IMG/VR virus record: IMGVR_UViG_3300031576_000004
Span: 1 to 64,000 of that record
DNA length: 64,000 nucleotides
Source of the DNA: a virus
Reading direction: 5' to 3' (one strand)
Made by a program: the position numbers and the translations under genes
In this document: positions 3,986-41,826 of the stretch, in pieces
Layout: each line of letters begins with the position of its first letter
How positions within the stretch are numbered: the stretch's first letter is position 1
Notes under the pieces: model-generated
Seen by the model: only the letters and a program-made list of their open reading frames with translations
Told to the model about the DNA's origin: nothing
Databases searched by the model: none

Positions 3986-4402
3986 ATGAGCAAGAACACA
4001 GCCATCACGATGACAGAAGAGAACAGGAAGCTTCTTAAGGGCGGCGGAGTCCTTTATGTTCCGTGCGATGACCCAGACGCTTTTGGTGCAAAGCGGCTAG
4101 TTGTTCTCGCAGAGAACCTTGACCCAACATGCATGACGCTTCTCTCAGATTTCCTTGACAGCTATGCAAAGCGTAGTGGGGTGGCGGCGAAGCTCAGCTT
4201 TATCGCGAAATCAAACGATCCAGACAGGAGCGCTCGCCCACAGATCGTTCCTCTTCCAATGCCGCAGAACGCATCCAGGGAAACGACGGCCAAGTCAATG
4301 GCTGGCGAAGACTTCATCAAGAAGATGAACACGAAAGACTCAAAAAAGTCTGCTCAAGAAGCTCCGAAGGACACCAATTGGCTGAAAGACAGCAAGGAGT
4401 AA
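3986..4402 (+). CDS. Hypothetical protein
   Basis: 138 residues. Starts with a polar segment followed by alternating strand-like hydrophobics (GGVLYVPCDD, RLVVLAENL) and ends in a Lys/Asp-rich disordered tail. Not recognised. It lies in the same plus-strand run as the zinc-module protein and the 280-residue protein that follows. Confidence 0.72.
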   Translation: MSKNTAITMTEENRKLLKGGGVLYVPCDDPDAFGAKRLVVLAENLDPTCMTLLSDFLDSYAKRSGVAAKLSFIAKSNDPDRSARPQIVPLPMPQNASRETTAKSMAGEDFIKKMNTKDSKKSAQEAPKDTNWLKDSKE

Positions 4403-4412
4403 CAGTAGTCCT

Positions 4413-5255
4413 ATGGATGGAGAAGAGAAGACCGGCGAACAAAAACTGATCAATGATGTTATTCTCTGCGCGGTCGCAAAGAAGTTCGGGCATGATCCCG
4501 AGAAGATGATGGAAAAGGCCTGTGAGGCCGAGAAGATCATCCAGCATGCCGCAAGGACACTCCCAGTCGACAAAGCGTTGGATGTCGCTGCGTGGGCGGT
4601 CATGTCTATAATTCCTGTTCAGCTCACAAGAGCAAGAGTCGCAGCTATGTTGGTTGGAGATCACAAGTGTGATCCTAGCTGTGGCCCGCAAGCGTTGGCA
4701 CTTCCGGTGCAAATCCTTAAGAGAGACGATATCGATGAATTCCAAAATTTAAACAACGGGGAAGACGTCTATAATGTTCTTATAGACCAAGCCCTCATCA
4801 AGTGCGGTGACAAGGAAGAGTTTCCTGCCACCGCCATATTTATTACAAAGGATGAGGTCCGTTTTTTGGATGTATCTCGATTCTTCAATCTTGGGGAATT
4901 TCCACCGGAGGCGGGTAAGGACATTGCTGCATCTTTGCTAAAGTCCATTGCGCAATCGCATGGACAAGACCTCCAGGGGCTATGCTTCGTCAGCGAAGTA
5001 TGGTACTCAAAACCTTCCTTGTCGCAGACCAGTCAGCTGGTCCCACCTAGCGAAGATCCGCATCGACGGGAAGCCCTCATGTTCAATCTTGAGTGGACCG
5101 GACAAGAACCGATTATGAAAATCCGTCCGTTCACCAGAACCTCTGATGGCGCTATTCTGTTCGAGGAAGCGGAATCAACACAGGGAGACACTCATACCGG
5201 AAGGTTCAACAATCTTATGCAGCAAGACCTTACTAATCTAGGGAGCGGGGGGTAA
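4413..5255 (+). CDS. Hypothetical 280-residue protein
   Basis: No family recognised. The first 60 residues are helical with acidic patches; the central part alternates hydrophobic strands (ATAIFITKDEVRFLDVS, LCFVSEVWYS) and the last 40 residues are polar. Two Cys near residue 90 (CDPSC) are isolated. It is the longest unknown gene of the left arm, and a GC-rich hairpin follows its stop codon. Confidence 0.75.
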   Translation: MDGEEKTGEQKLINDVILCAVAKKFGHDPEKMMEKACEAEKIIQHAARTLPVDKALDVAAWAVMSIIPVQLTRARVAAMLVGDHKCDPSCGPQALALPVQILKRDDIDEFQNLNNGEDVYNVLIDQALIKCGDKEEFPATAIFITKDEVRFLDVSRFFNLGEFPPEAGKDIAASLLKSIAQSHGQDLQGLCFVSEVWYSKPSLSQTSQLVPPSEDPHRREALMFNLEWTGQEPIMKIRPFTRTSDGAILFEEAESTQGDTHTGRFNNLMQQDLTNLGSGG

Positions 5256-8387: not shown

Positions 8388-8527
8388 CTCAAGTTGTAAT
8401 ACGACCGAGAAGCTCGGTTAAATACATCGCCTTCTAGCTTAAGACGCACGCTGGCAAACAGCTCGAGTAGGAGTACCAACTCGAGCTGCAAGCCAGGTGG
8501 ACCATTGGATGGATTCTTGAACTTGAG
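8388..8527 (+). ncRNA. Structured element 1 of the array
   Basis: Outer stem CTCAAGTT (8388-8395) with AACTTGAG (8520-8527), 8 bp. NAG hairpin ACCGAG-AAG-CTCGGT at 8404-8418. Inner stem AGCTCGAGT (8460-8468) with ACTCGAGCT (8479-8487), extended by CTGGC (8451-8455) with GCCAG (8492-8496). Ends TGGATTCTTG before the closing arm, as does element 5. Confidence 0.8.
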
Positions 8528-8538
8528 GTTATTTATTT

Positions 8539-8682
8539 ATTCAGGTTGTTCCCTTGGGCAAGTAGCTTGCCTGTTCAAATGATATCTTCCATGCTCAGTC
8601 CGTCGTGCTAACGCCGGCGGCCTGAGTACAAGCCGCCGGCGATATCACGCGGTCCAAAGCATCCGGAGACTAGAACCTGAAT
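8539..8682 (+). ncRNA. Structured element 2 of the array
   Basis: Outer stem ATTCAGGTT (8539-8547) with AACCTGAAT (8674-8682), 9 bp. Hairpin GGCAAG-TAG-CTTGCC at 8557-8571. Inside, GATATC 8581-8586 can pair with GATATC 8641-8646, enclosing a 9-bp stem (8613-8621 with 8632-8640). The loop of that stem carries CTGAG (8622-8626), complementary to CTCAG (8594-8598): a candidate pseudoknot. Confidence 0.82.
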
Positions 8683-8836
8683 TAATTCATATTGTTCCTT
8701 AGGCATGCAGCATGCCGTGACGAAGATTGTGCAAGCCGATACTCCAGCCGAGTGAGCACTTCGGTGAGCGAGTACGCTCCACCGCAGTGCACACTTCGTC
8801 TGTCTTTATCATTCAGCATCTAGAATATGAATTAAT
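8681..8836 (+). ncRNA. Structured element 3 of the array
   Basis: Longest outer stem of the set: ATTAATTCATATT (8681-8693) with AATATGAATTAAT (8824-8836), 13 bp without a mismatch; its first two bases are shared with element 2. Hairpin GGCATG-CAG-CATGCC at 8702-8716. Inner stem GACGAAG (8719-8725) with CTTCGTC (8794-8800), then GTGCA (8729-8733) with TGCAC (8788-8792), then a hairpin at 8763-8783 with one bulged base. Confidence 0.82.
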
Positions 8837-8838
8837 AC

Positions 8839-8978
8839 CCGCCATTGTAAAATTACAATGAAAACAGCGAAGCGCTGTTATCTCAATAGGTAGAAACAAT
8901 TCCATGGGGATGTGAGGCTCTAGCGAGCTTTCACATCCGACATAGCAAGAGGGGAAACACCCCTCCATCGAATGGCGG
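8839..8978 (+). ncRNA. Structured element 4 of the array
   Basis: Outer stem CCGCCATT (8839-8846) with AATGGCGG (8971-8978). Hairpin AACAGCG-AAG-CGCTGTT at 8863-8879. Further stems: GGATGTGA (8908-8915) with TCACATCC (8931-8938) topped by GCTC/GAGC, and GAGGGG (8949-8954) with CCCCTC (8960-8965). CATTGTA at 8843-8849 can instead pair with TACAATG at 8854-8860, competing with the outer stem. Confidence 0.8.
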
Positions 8979-8984
8979 ATTTTA

Positions 8985-9102
8985 TGGCATTGTATATGGG
9001 GGGCGCAGCGCTCCTAACAGTCGAAGCATGGATACGACGAGACACCTCGTTAAAGAAAGTTTCTTTCCCGAGGTGCAAGATCAGTTGGATTCTTGAATGC
9101 CA
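8985..9102 (+). ncRNA. Structured element 5 of the array
   Basis: Outer stem TGGCATT (8985-8991) with AATGCCA (9096-9102). Hairpin GGGGCG-CAG-CGCTCC at 9000-9014, with one G-T pair. Inner stem CACCTCG (9043-9049) with CGAGGTG (9069-9075) topped by AAAGAA/TTCTTT. Shortest unit of the array. Confidence 0.78.
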
Positions 9103-9105
9103 ATA

Positions 9106-9258
9106 GGAATGTTGTTTCTTGAAAGCGAAGCGCTTTCACAGTCCAAGCAATCACACGAAAAAGTGAGATGGTACCCGCAGATCTGCGGCAGATTACTGCC
9201 CAGCAGATCTGGGGAACATCTCGCTCTTATCAGTCAGAATCTCGCCATTGAACATTCC
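9106..9258 (+). ncRNA. Structured element 6 of the array
   Basis: Outer stem GGAATGTT (9106-9113) with AACATTCC (9251-9258). Hairpin TGAAAGCG-AAG-CGCTTTCA at 9120-9138 (8 bp). Inner stem GAGATG (9165-9170) with CATCTC (9217-9222); inside it a perfect 14-base palindrome (9175-9188) whose core CAGATCTG recurs at 9204-9211 and can pair with it. Confidence 0.8.
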
Positions 9259-9433
9259 AACCAAAGTTGTTTCCTAAACGCGAAGCGCGTTAGTAGTCCT
9301 AGCAACCACAATCATGCTCTGTTTCCAGACCATCCGTTCGATGTCTCGGCCTCGTCAGTAGACGAGAAAGCCTCAACATCTCACTCCTGGTCTTCCAATC
9401 CGCACGAGCACCCGAGACACTTGAACTTTGGTT
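9259..9433 (+). ncRNA. Structured element 7 of the array
   Basis: Outer stem AACCAAAGTT (9259-9268) with AACTTTGGTT (9424-9433), 10 bp. Hairpin AACGCG-AAG-CGCGTT at 9277-9291. Inner stem GATGT (9340-9344) with ACATC (9376-9380) over CTCGTC (9351-9356) with GACGAG (9361-9366). Its 3' part shares the 14-mer ACGAGCACCCGAGA with element 8, pointing to duplication. Confidence 0.8.
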
Positions 9434-9443
9434 CTATATAAGT

Positions 9444-9631
9444 TAATCCAGGTTGTATTCCTGACGAGGATTGGCGTAGCGCCATGATTCTCCTAGCCAT
9501 TACAGTCACGCTCATAACGGAACTCGCTCTCTCGGCGCGCTGCGACTTTTCTTGATAAAGAAAAGATCTTGCTTGCCTCGGTTCGCGATTTCCTATTCAC
9601 ACGAGCACCCGAGAAACATGAACCTGGATTA
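9444..9631 (+). ncRNA. Structured element 8 of the array
   Basis: Outer stem TAATCCAGGTT (9444-9454) with AACCTGGATTA (9621-9631), 11 bp. Hairpin TGGCG-TAG-CGCCA at 9472-9484; a small TCCT-GACG-AGGA helix is inserted before it. A further hairpin CTTTTCTT (9546-9553) with AAGAAAAG (9558-9565). Longest unit. Confidence 0.8.
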
Positions 9632-9639
9632 GTTAATCA

Positions 9640-9780
9640 TCTAAAGCTGTATCAGCGCCGAGAAGCTCGGCTGGATTCAGGCCGCAACAGACTCAGCTCC
9701 GCAACATCAACTACTGAAGTAAAGAGTACTTAACTTCAGTATTGATGTCTCGGGCCGTACGAAGATTCTTGAGCTTTAGA
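9640..9780 (+). ncRNA. Structured element 9 of the array
   Basis: Outer stem TCTAAAGCT (9640-9648) with AGCTTTAGA (9772-9780), 9 bp. Hairpin GCCGAG-AAG-CTCGGC at 9657-9671. A long interrupted inner helix: ACATCAA (9704-9710) with TTGATGT (9742-9748), continuing into ACTGAAGT (9713-9720) with ACTTCAGT (9733-9740). Confidence 0.8.
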
Positions 9781-9901
9781 CCGACATTGTATTCCTAGGG
9801 AAGAAGCTTCCCTTTATATATAGAGCATTACTAAGTAAACCCTCCGCCTGCCCCCCTAGGGGCCTGGCGGAGGATTCAATAGAAAGGACCGAGAATGTCG
9901 G
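9781..9901 (+). ncRNA. Structured element 10 of the array
   Basis: Outer stem CCGACATT (9781-9788) with AATGTCGG (9894-9901). Hairpin AGGGAAG-AAG-CTTCCCT at 9797-9813. Inner GC-rich hairpin CCTCCGCC (9841-9848) with GGCGGAGG (9866-9873), with a C-run/G-run in its loop. It ends eleven bases before the next start codon and may cover that ribosome-binding region. Confidence 0.8.
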
Positions 9902-11930: not shown

Positions 11931-12053
11931 CTACAGTTGTTCTTTGATGGGGGAAGCCCCCGTAAGGATGGCGTTACCACTCGAATACAACAGTGAGATA
12001 CAAGCGGACATTGCCCCGCTTGTGCAGGCAGATAAGAATCTAGAACTGTGGCT
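11929..12053 (+). ncRNA. Eleventh copy of the structured element, standing alone
   Basis: Outer stem AGCTACAGTT (11929-11938) with AACTGTGGCT (12044-12053), 10 bp with one G-T. Hairpin GGGGG-AAG-CCCCC at 11949-11961. Inner stem ACAAGCGG (12000-12007) with CCGCTTGT (12016-12023). Same order and same TTGT...TAGAA junctions as the array elements two kilobases upstream. The closing arm runs into TTTTATTT. Confidence 0.8.
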
Positions 12054-39979: not shown

Positions 39980-41414
39980 GTGATATAAGTTCTTCCAGCA
40001 TAGCCAAGCAATACATACTCAAACCGAGCAGCAAAACAGAACAGTACCGGCCCTGACGCAGCAGCTTGACGTAATGGCTCCCCATCCGATTTAGCAGCTA
40101 CATCCGACACGGCTACACGACATCGCACTGAGCAGCGAGACCAGATATCATATTCACCCGACCTCATGGAGCAGTGCGACGAAACGGAATGCGATTGATC
40201 CCCATATGACGTAGCGGCGGGACGTAATGAGATTAAACCGAATGAAGCACTACCGCATGGAGCAGCTACACTTCACCCGACTTCGCGACGCGATATGGAG
40301 CAGCGACACACCATTTCGTGACTCGTAATCGAACGTGATACAGCAGCAAGGCGAGACAACATGGTATTGAGACGTTATATAGCAGCGACGCGAGACGCGG
40401 CACGACGGGGTTACGCCAGATGAAGCAGCATCACGACATAAGACGAGACAAAGATTTCACGAGATGTAGCAGTTACACCTCATCCGATGCGCCGAGACGA
40501 GATCCAGCAGCTACGCAAGACCAAACCTCACGGGATAACATGCATTTAAAGCGGCTAAACCCCACCACGCCACATTCTATGCAATTGAATGACATGCATT
40601 CATAGCAGCGAGCTCCTACACCATCCAACTTTATGGGACGCCACGCCCTGTCATAAAGCAGCAAGACGTCACGGGACTTGATTTCGTATCATCCCATGGA
40701 GCAGCAAGATAAGACCGCTCAGCACGTAAGTTTCATGAAGCAGCAAGACGACATTACATATACTCCTTATCCAGCAGCATCATACGGCTACACTGGACGA
40801 GACCTAATGTGACGTAGCAGCGTAACGCCATGTTCCCGCACCGTATTAAACGTAGCAGCGAGATTACACCGGACCGGATTTCATAAGACGAAGCGGCAAG
40901 GCAAGACCACACCAGATCAGTTACCATGAAGCGGCACAGCACAACCTGACGAGATGACCCACATTCTCACAAGATACATTCGTAGCGGCATCATAATGCT
41001 GGACGACACATCTCAAGATGCAGCAGCAAAATGACACACCCTTTGACGAAGCAGCGAGCCATGACCAGATGTTCCCGAATATAGGCCTAGCGGCTACATA
41101 TGACGACATACGGCACAGCAAAGCAGCTTCACGACACGAGGCGCGGTCAGACAAGATCTAGCAGCAACATAACACTACTCTGGACTTAATATGATGAAGC
41201 AGCAAGATCCGGCACGACCTCTAGTTACAATACTTGATGCAGCAGCATGACGAGTCGAAATCGGCATAAGATGGCACAGGATGAAGCAGCCAGACGAGGC
41301 GAGACTGAGGCACGGCTACACGGCATGAAGCAGCTACACACAATAGAATCCCACGATGCTCGATAAATTCATAGCAGCAGGACGAGACACCACTACATTT
41401 CATGGAGCGGCTAA
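39980..41414. repeat. Gene-free array of degenerate pentamers with AGCRGC anchors
   Basis: From 40027 to 41411 a 6-base anchor, AGCAGC or AGCGGC (a few AGCAGT), recurs about 35 times at spacings of 28, 33, 38/39, 43/44, 48 or 53/54 bases. Between anchors the DNA reads as 4-9 pentamers whose 4th base is mostly A and 5th base almost always C or T (for example TACAC TTCAC CCGAC), plus 2-3 linking bases. Occasional one-base insertions explain spacings one base longer. Only short, unconvincing frames exist on either strand. The last anchor overlaps the ribosome site of the gene at 41415. No known element class fits. Confidence 0.88.
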
Positions 41415-41624
41415 ATGAAAACAAAGTATAAGAAGAAAGACACGAAGGTCCTTGTGGACCTTCTCAGTCTGGTCAGCTGTTCTGTTTCAGAGGGATTCCT
41501 AAATACCCTGACACAAGCGCAACGCGATGAGGCTGACAAGTGGGCATGGCGAGAGCATATGGTCGCAAGCGATCACAGAGAATTAAAGAGACTTCAAAGA
41601 CCCGCATTCCTTCCAAAGGGGTAA
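41415..41624 (+). CDS. Hypothetical small protein
   Basis: 69 residues, GGAG seven bases upstream (part of the last array anchor). Basic and helical with LVDLLSLVSCSVSEGFL near the start. Unknown. Confidence 0.68.
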   Translation: MKTKYKKKDTKVLVDLLSLVSCSVSEGFLNTLTQAQRDEADKWAWREHMVASDHRELKRLQRPAFLPKG

Positions 41625-41627
41625 CAC

Positions 41628-41810
41628 ATGAAGGGCAACGATATGATCCCAAGGAAATCTGGCCTTAAAGACAGGTCTGTTGGATGGGGTGGCCAAAAGT
41701 GTCCATGCTGCAAGGTCAGCTCTGCTGTAATGAAGCTAGAACACCGGCGCATTCGCAGGATCCTAAAGCAGGGCACTAGGAACACGAACCCATACGTTGG
41801 CGAGATGTAA
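41628..41810 (+). CDS. Small basic protein with CPCC motif
   Basis: 60 residues. CPCC near residue 25 and many Arg/Lys; possibly half of a zinc site completed by His 39. Unknown function. Confidence 0.65.
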   Translation: MKGNDMIPRKSGLKDRSVGWGGQKCPCCKVSSAVMKLEHRRIRRILKQGTRNTNPYVGEM

Positions 41811-41826
41811 TCAGGTATAAGGACTT

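Follow-up and report, generated by a model that had tools for sequence, protein, structure and literature searches.

An array of eleven divergent structured units in a phage genome, very probably templates for a single retron reverse transcriptase

Organization of the array and the phage genome

The DNA analysed here, referred to as the window, is a stretch of 64,000 nucleotides covering positions 1-64,000 of an IMG/VR virus record of 163,302 bases, which comes from a phage whose genes include one for a contractile-tail sheath. Ten contiguous units were recovered from the window by a script at 8388-9901 on the plus strand, adjoined by a RusA-like gene, and an eleventh unit was recovered at 11933-12049. 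Each unit consisted of a first outer arm (a1), a GT, a triloop hairpin, a long hairpin, a G and a second outer arm (a2), as listed below.

8388..8527 (+), unit 1: a1 CTCAAGTT, GTAATACG, msr-type hairpin 8404-8418 (AAG), long hairpin 8451-8496 (loop AGTA), GATTCTTG, a2 AACTTGAG
8539..8682 (+), unit 2: a1 ATTCAGGTT, GT, hairpin 8557-8571 (TAG), long hairpin 8591-8662, GAGACTAG, a2 AACCTGAAT
8681..8836 (+), unit 3: a1 ATTAATTCATATT (13 bp), GT, hairpin 8702-8716 (CAG), long hairpin ~8745-8812, GCATCTAG, a2
8839..8978 (+), unit 4: a1 CCGCCATT, GT, hairpin 8863-8879 (AAG), long hairpin ~8902-8945, CTCCATCG, a2
8985..9102 (+), unit 5: a1 TGGCATT, GT, hairpin 8999-9015 (CAG), long hairpin ~9042-9076, GATTCTTG, a2
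9106..9258 (+), unit 6: a1 GGAATGTT, GT, hairpin 9120-9138 (AAG), long hairpin ~9161-9225 (loop ATTA), CGCCATTG, a2
9259..9433 (+), unit 7: a1 AACCAAAGTT, GT, hairpin 9277-9291 (AAG), long structured part, GACACTTG, a2
9444..9631 (+), unit 8: a1 TAATCCAGGTT, GT, hairpin 9472-9484 (TAG), long structured part, GAAACATG, a2
9640..9780 (+), unit 9: a1 TCTAAAGCT, GT, hairpin 9657-9671 (AAG), long hairpin ~9701-9750 (loop AGTA), GATTCTTG, a2
9781..9901 (+), unit 10: a1 CCGACATT, GT, hairpin 9797-9813 (AAG), long hairpin 9838-9876, GGACCGAG, a2
11933..12049 (+), unit 11, an orphan between two ORFs: a1 ACAGTT, GT, hairpin 11949-11961 (AAG), GAATCTAG, a2 AACTGT

The arms a1 and a2 were perfectly Watson-Crick paired in 11/11 units and measured 6-13 bp (7-13 bp in the ten array units, 6 bp in unit 11). 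In every unit GT lay directly 3' of a1 and G directly 5' of a2, and the triloop hairpin, closed by a G-C pair with the loop AAG, TAG or CAG, stood 6-17 nt past the GT and was followed by the long hairpin. The NAG-loop hairpin after the first arm and the G before the second, both noted in the preliminary description of this DNA, were found in each unit, including unit 5, where the hairpin was G-CAG-C with a wobble or mismatch in an imperfect lower stem. The TT/AA end of the arms, the GT and the G were the only elements common to all arms and units, and the arm sequences otherwise varied. The gaps between units of the ten-unit array ranged from -2 to 11 nt; of the spacing of 0-11 bases given previously, the upper value was correct and the lower was not, since there is a 2-nt overlap between the arms of units 2 and 3.

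The array region was essentially non-coding, and the sole long ORF inside it (9097-9441, 114 aa) spans two units. A 24-nt stretch was common to units 7 and 8, and in the arm matrix the arms of units 2 and 8 cross-matched well. The long-hairpin sequences were unlike one another in every unit and gave no matches to the rest of the phage genome above shuffled controls; the idea that the units are copies of, or aimed at, other phage genes was dropped because such matches were no better than the shuffled controls. ANYA-type tetraloops (AGTA, ATTA) cap several plus-strand long hairpins (8451-8496, 9161-9225 and 9701-9750).

Other features of the phage were recorded alongside. The genome carries some 25 genes for tRNAs and one for a tmRNA (locus L003, 18875-19689; locus L004, 260-3618 and 5305-5695), as well as a gene pair resembling RavA (MoxR AAA ATPase) and ViaA (VWA) on the plus strand of locus L006 (4382-5599 and 6956-8314). 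A further stretch of the window, 39980-41826, comprised ~1.9 kb without an ORF of at least 80 aa, up to 41827.

Covariation of the fold and strand assignment

The preliminary description had reported ten consecutive structured units with outer arms of 7-13 bp that vary and nevertheless pair, and all of them were recovered. When only the inner six positions of each arm were considered, 66/66 pairs were formed within units, compared with a mean of 39 (sd 4.4, max 58) when the second arms were dealt to other units in 20,000 deals. In the core, comprising the outer stem P1, the GT and the triloop hairpin, 121/121 cells were paired across the 11 units, whereas shuffles gave 66% and slid registers no more than 47%; the core was delimited by the structure itself, so this paired percentage is biased towards structure, a bias of which the arm shuffle is free. 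Two-sided change was found in 9/11 core pairs, and the covariation score of the core was 0.96 compared with 0.24 in shuffles. The earlier claim that compensatory change marks a selected fold is borne out by these two-sided changes and by the arm shuffle (66 vs 39), and covariation past the outer stem, which had been named beforehand as the test, was seen in the core alignment, where the triloop hairpin also covaries. The two halves of the array had MFE z-scores of -9.6 and -6.2, and individual units had values of -2.2 to -6.9. With a blind descriptor, a run of units in the phage genome was found at the array only, together with isolated chance matches elsewhere.

Taken alone, the minus strand has a slightly lower folding energy than the plus strand in most units, so that energy does not assign the strand. 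The plus-strand reading was adopted because the RT strand of two related phages (see below) shows the order arm, GT, hairpin, long hairpin, G and arm; the minus strand was ruled out as the functional strand, since the G and GT positions and the order of the hairpins in both relatives fit the plus reading on the RT strand. No Rfam covariance model matched the array at the gathering score, with chance-level hits only at E values up to 5, and a blastn search of phage records with the array returned nothing.

The reverse transcriptase of the phage

The whole 163-kb record contains a single reverse transcriptase (RT) gene (RVT_1), which lies outside the window:

136594-137979 of the record: RT gene with a Cys-rich N-terminal extension

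The protein matched the NCBIfam model retron_St85_RT (1.4e-55), the PADLOC retron RTs RT_III-A (3e-65) and RT_XIII (8e-65), and the Ec86 RT in the PDB (2.7e-37). It carries the motifs NAAQH in region X, YADD, and VTG in region Y. NAXXH and VTG have been reported as retron-specific motifs (PMC6868368). Judged from its sequence, the phage enzyme is a retron RT. Its first ~120 residues form a Cys-rich extension that gave no Pfam match, and an AlphaFold2 model of the enzyme was set aside (pLDDT 45).

The array and the RT are ~127 kb apart along the record, or ~34 kb if the ends should join, which is putative. No RT template was seen beside the RT in this genome. After the RT gene, in this phage and in two related ones, come two small ORFs, one helical and the other with a likely membrane segment, with weak similarity among the genomes and no family match among those tested; from their position and predicted features, these two ORFs are candidate partners of the RT.

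Arrays directly upstream of related reverse transcriptases

Among the best 80 IMG/VR matches to the retron RT, which were compared, the Cys-rich extension was common to only two loci, L054 on a 76.8-kb contig and L055 on a 94.5-kb contig. The RTs of the window's phage, L054 and L055 formed one clade in a quick tree (SH-aLRT 97), and units of the same layout as those in the window were found directly upstream of the L054 and L055 RTs, on the same strand:

L054, 9434-9529, 9527-9670 and 9682-9836 (RT strand): three tandem units, the last ending 9 nt before the RT ATG (9845)
L055, near 8696 (RT strand): first head, GCCTA followed by GTACAACC
L055, 9377-9519 (RT strand): unit CCCGCTTA, GT...G, TAAGCGGG
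L055, ~9536-9713 (RT strand): unit GCCTA, GT...AAAAG, TAGGC
L055, 9713-9878 (RT strand): unit CCGCTTA, GT...GAG, TAAGCGG, with a2 ending at the RT GTG (9878)

In L054 the first arms and the bases after them are GCCCTTG with GTGTATTTC, GGCCTG with GTACATTA and CTCCTAT with GTATATTGT, and a GGCG-NNT-CGCC hairpin comes after each. Upstream of its RT, L055 has four heads, two of them with arms of only 5 bp. After the first head of L055 come nine stretches, 39-115 nt long and mostly ending in GGAAAGG and TAGGC, the latter complementary to the GCCTA of the head. Hairpins with z-scores of about -3 to -5 occur in 5/9 of these tails, and the others are weak. Eight copies of GGAAAGGTAGG, with variants, lie at 8815-9375 of L055, 50-95 nt apart, with differing hairpins between them, and the tail pattern GGAAAGGTAGGC..GGAAAGGTAGG was found in IMG/VR on L055's own contig only. 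The tails may represent one head with several alternative tails, or decayed units.

When the 11 units of the window and 5 units of L054 and L055 were aligned, 176/176 cells were paired, and the GT after a1, the G-C closure of the triloop and the G before a2 were invariant. The triloops of the relatives are UUU, CUU, CAU and UCU, compared with NAG in the window. A uniform descriptor found unit runs in the three genomes solely at the arrays described here, with single chance matches elsewhere.

The large terminase subunit (TerL) encoded on the contig of L055 is 49% identical to that of the window's phage, and a gene convergent with the RT operon is common to these kin phages (28%, E 1e-33). These facts suggest that they belong to one phage lineage. 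Since the array adjoins the RT clade in the relatives, array and RT clade appear to belong together and to have been separated in the window's genome, where the array is far from the RT and their partnership is therefore drawn from the relatives. The comparison spans three genomes, and IMG/VR records may be fragments. Searches for further IMG/VR relatives gave one locus, without an array, through the RusA-like gene and none through TerL.

Proposed function and alternative explanations

We consider it highly probable that the eleven units are retron-type msr-msd templates on the plus strand, used in trans by the single retron RT of the phage. The preliminary description had assigned the layout to no named RNA class; it fits the retron msr-msd template, which was absent from the list considered there, and the earlier suggestion of an array of multiple small RNAs is upheld. 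It has been reported that in retrons the 5' and 3' arms pair and DNA starts at the 2'-OH of the G after a1, and that the RT binds the msr stem-loop through region Y, an 8-bp stem with a UUU loop being sufficient for Ec86 (PMC6868368). UUU, the loop of that Ec86 stem, is among the triloops of the relatives. From the observed unit anatomy, covariation, enzyme motifs and array adjacency in the relatives, we infer that the RNAs would be transcribed, processed and used by the RT as follows. Each unit would be transcribed from the plus strand, and a1 would pair with a2. The RT would recognise the short triloop hairpin beside the arms, priming would use the 2'-OH of the G that immediately follows a1, and the long hairpin would be copied, starting just inside a2. 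Each RNA would then yield its own branched RNA-DNA (msDNA), so that one enzyme could give about eleven different msDNAs. The differing arms of neighbouring units would prevent mispairing in tandem.

As for purpose, the long hairpins are all different and have no matches in the phage genome, which suggests a diversified repertoire rather than a means of editing or diversifying the phage's own genes. A role as DNA decoys or sensors directed at host defences or at rival phages is rated most likely and would take rather more than half of the probability given to the templates themselves. About evenly balanced, in our view, is a fuller picture in which one RT serves diversified templates, the single msr head of L055 pairs through its short a1 with the a2 of several tails and so primes many DNAs, and these DNAs act as interchangeable decoys or sensors when the phage is in conflict with host defences or with rival phages.

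Several points would also fit small structured RNAs belonging to some other, unnamed class, such as decoy RNAs or RNAs that bind proteins, which would never undergo reverse transcription and to which the RT would be unrelated. The array and the RT are unlinked in the window's genome, no Rfam match was obtained even at lax thresholds, and the classic retron motif is matched neither by the GU that follows a1 nor by the NAG loops. However, in two relatives, units of this layout immediately precede an RT of the same clade, and no alternative template was seen beside the RT in the window's genome, so we regard this explanation as unlikely. Elements acting as single-stranded DNA or cruciforms, such as a replication origin or recombination or attC-like sites, have the least probability of all. 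Perfect inverted repeats do lie beside a RusA-like gene, and the hairpins are palindromic on both strands, but the arms vary among units while recombination sites share sequence, the internal layout covaries as a single fold, and the arrays of the relatives occupy the position of a retron template with fixed strand and order. Nothing was found in support of the single-stranded DNA structures at an origin that the preliminary description had put forward.

It is also conceivable, though quite improbable, that the array is decayed or expanded, with one or a few working retron templates and drifting duplicates making up the remainder. The stretch shared by units 7 and 8 would suit such an origin, and there is a precedent in Retron-Nex1 (Ne160) of Nannocystis exedens, for which several duplicated repeats of msr-msd have been reported, with the nearest RT more than a kilobase away if there is one (PMC6868368). 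However, despite their divergence, perfect arms and the GT and G positions have been retained in each of the eleven units, and drift would destroy these.

Comparison with known systems

As in known retrons (Ec86/Eco1, Ec67, St85; PADLOC types III-A and XIII), the RT here has the NAxxH, YADD and VTG motifs, and the template has a1/a2 arms, a G after a1 and one or more short hairpins before a long hairpin. In L054 and L055 the putative templates also resemble those of known retrons in their position, immediately preceding the RT gene on its strand, which is not so in the window's genome. Unlike in retrons, many different templates go with one RT and, in the window's genome, are encoded in trans; the RT has a Cys-rich N-terminal extension, and the genome is that of a large phage. 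The AGC motif of characterised retrons is replaced here by NGU (UGU in the window; GGU, AGU and UGU in the relatives), which we take as a variant of the motif; the layout is unchanged. One validated retron has no apparent priming G (PMC6868368). Unlike the duplicates of Retron-Nex1, the eleven units are divergent, show compensatory arm changes and represent a conserved trait of a phage RT clade. Apart from Retron-Nex1, no other natural tandem or multiple retron RNAs were found in the literature covered, in which subscription papers and bioRxiv were sparsely represented. The known retrons in that literature have one template RNA per cassette, again save Retron-Nex1, and the multi-template phage set probably departs from this rule.

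Engineered retron arrays, in which several templates are combined with retron RTs for multi-site editing, were reportedly described by Gonzalez-Delgado and colleagues in 2024, a study cited in PMC12548924; those were designed for editing, whereas the phage array is natural. Tandem non-coding RNA genes of phages and mobile elements also include phage tRNA arrays, ROOL and GOLLD RNAs and the RNA repeats of type III toxin-antitoxin systems, from which the present array differs in its fold and in having no Rfam match.

Retrons are described as bacterial anti-phage devices with one enzyme and one template, and the phage lineage described here probably combines one enzyme with up to eleven templates. 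This suggests that phages have turned the retron system around into a library of small DNAs. For DNA production and editing, such a system would be a natural source of multiplexed templates and of RTs that act in trans, and with it the purpose of msDNA sequence variety becomes directly testable.

Survey of other loci

Several other candidates were rejected. The pattern TTGTWTYCYW..GCGAAGCGC occurred on 39 IMG/VR contigs, none of which passed the arm test, and the best-looking one was within an ORF. Generic chains of inverted repeats were too unspecific at 7 bp to serve as an array detector, and a repeat run in L056 (P2-like) was dropped because it lies within a coding region. The retron RT of OR844994 was not accepted as a relative, as it has no Cys-rich extension and no convincing array; OR844994.1 (loci L048-L050) is a 153-kb wastewater contig, an unverified and unannotated deposit named Staphylococcus phage SA 1306 Kay, and may be a bacterial contig.

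Upstream of the RT of locus L103 there is one retron-like RNA with a GGCG-UUU-CGCC hairpin. Around other retron RTs, two tandem pairs were found in 5.4 million strand-bases, and only that of locus L215, from Candidatus Coprocola pullicola, was convincing. At 4396-4796 on the minus strand, this locus has two tandem retron-like RNAs with arms of 14 and 18 bp, in which the msr-like parts are near-identical and the long stems different. An operon encoding proteins of 951 aa and 590 aa and a retron RT points away from the pair, which lies ~100 nt upstream of it and in divergent orientation. L215 is likely a two-unit bacterial retron, with a putative pairing to that RT, and the pair supports the existence of retrons with more than one template.
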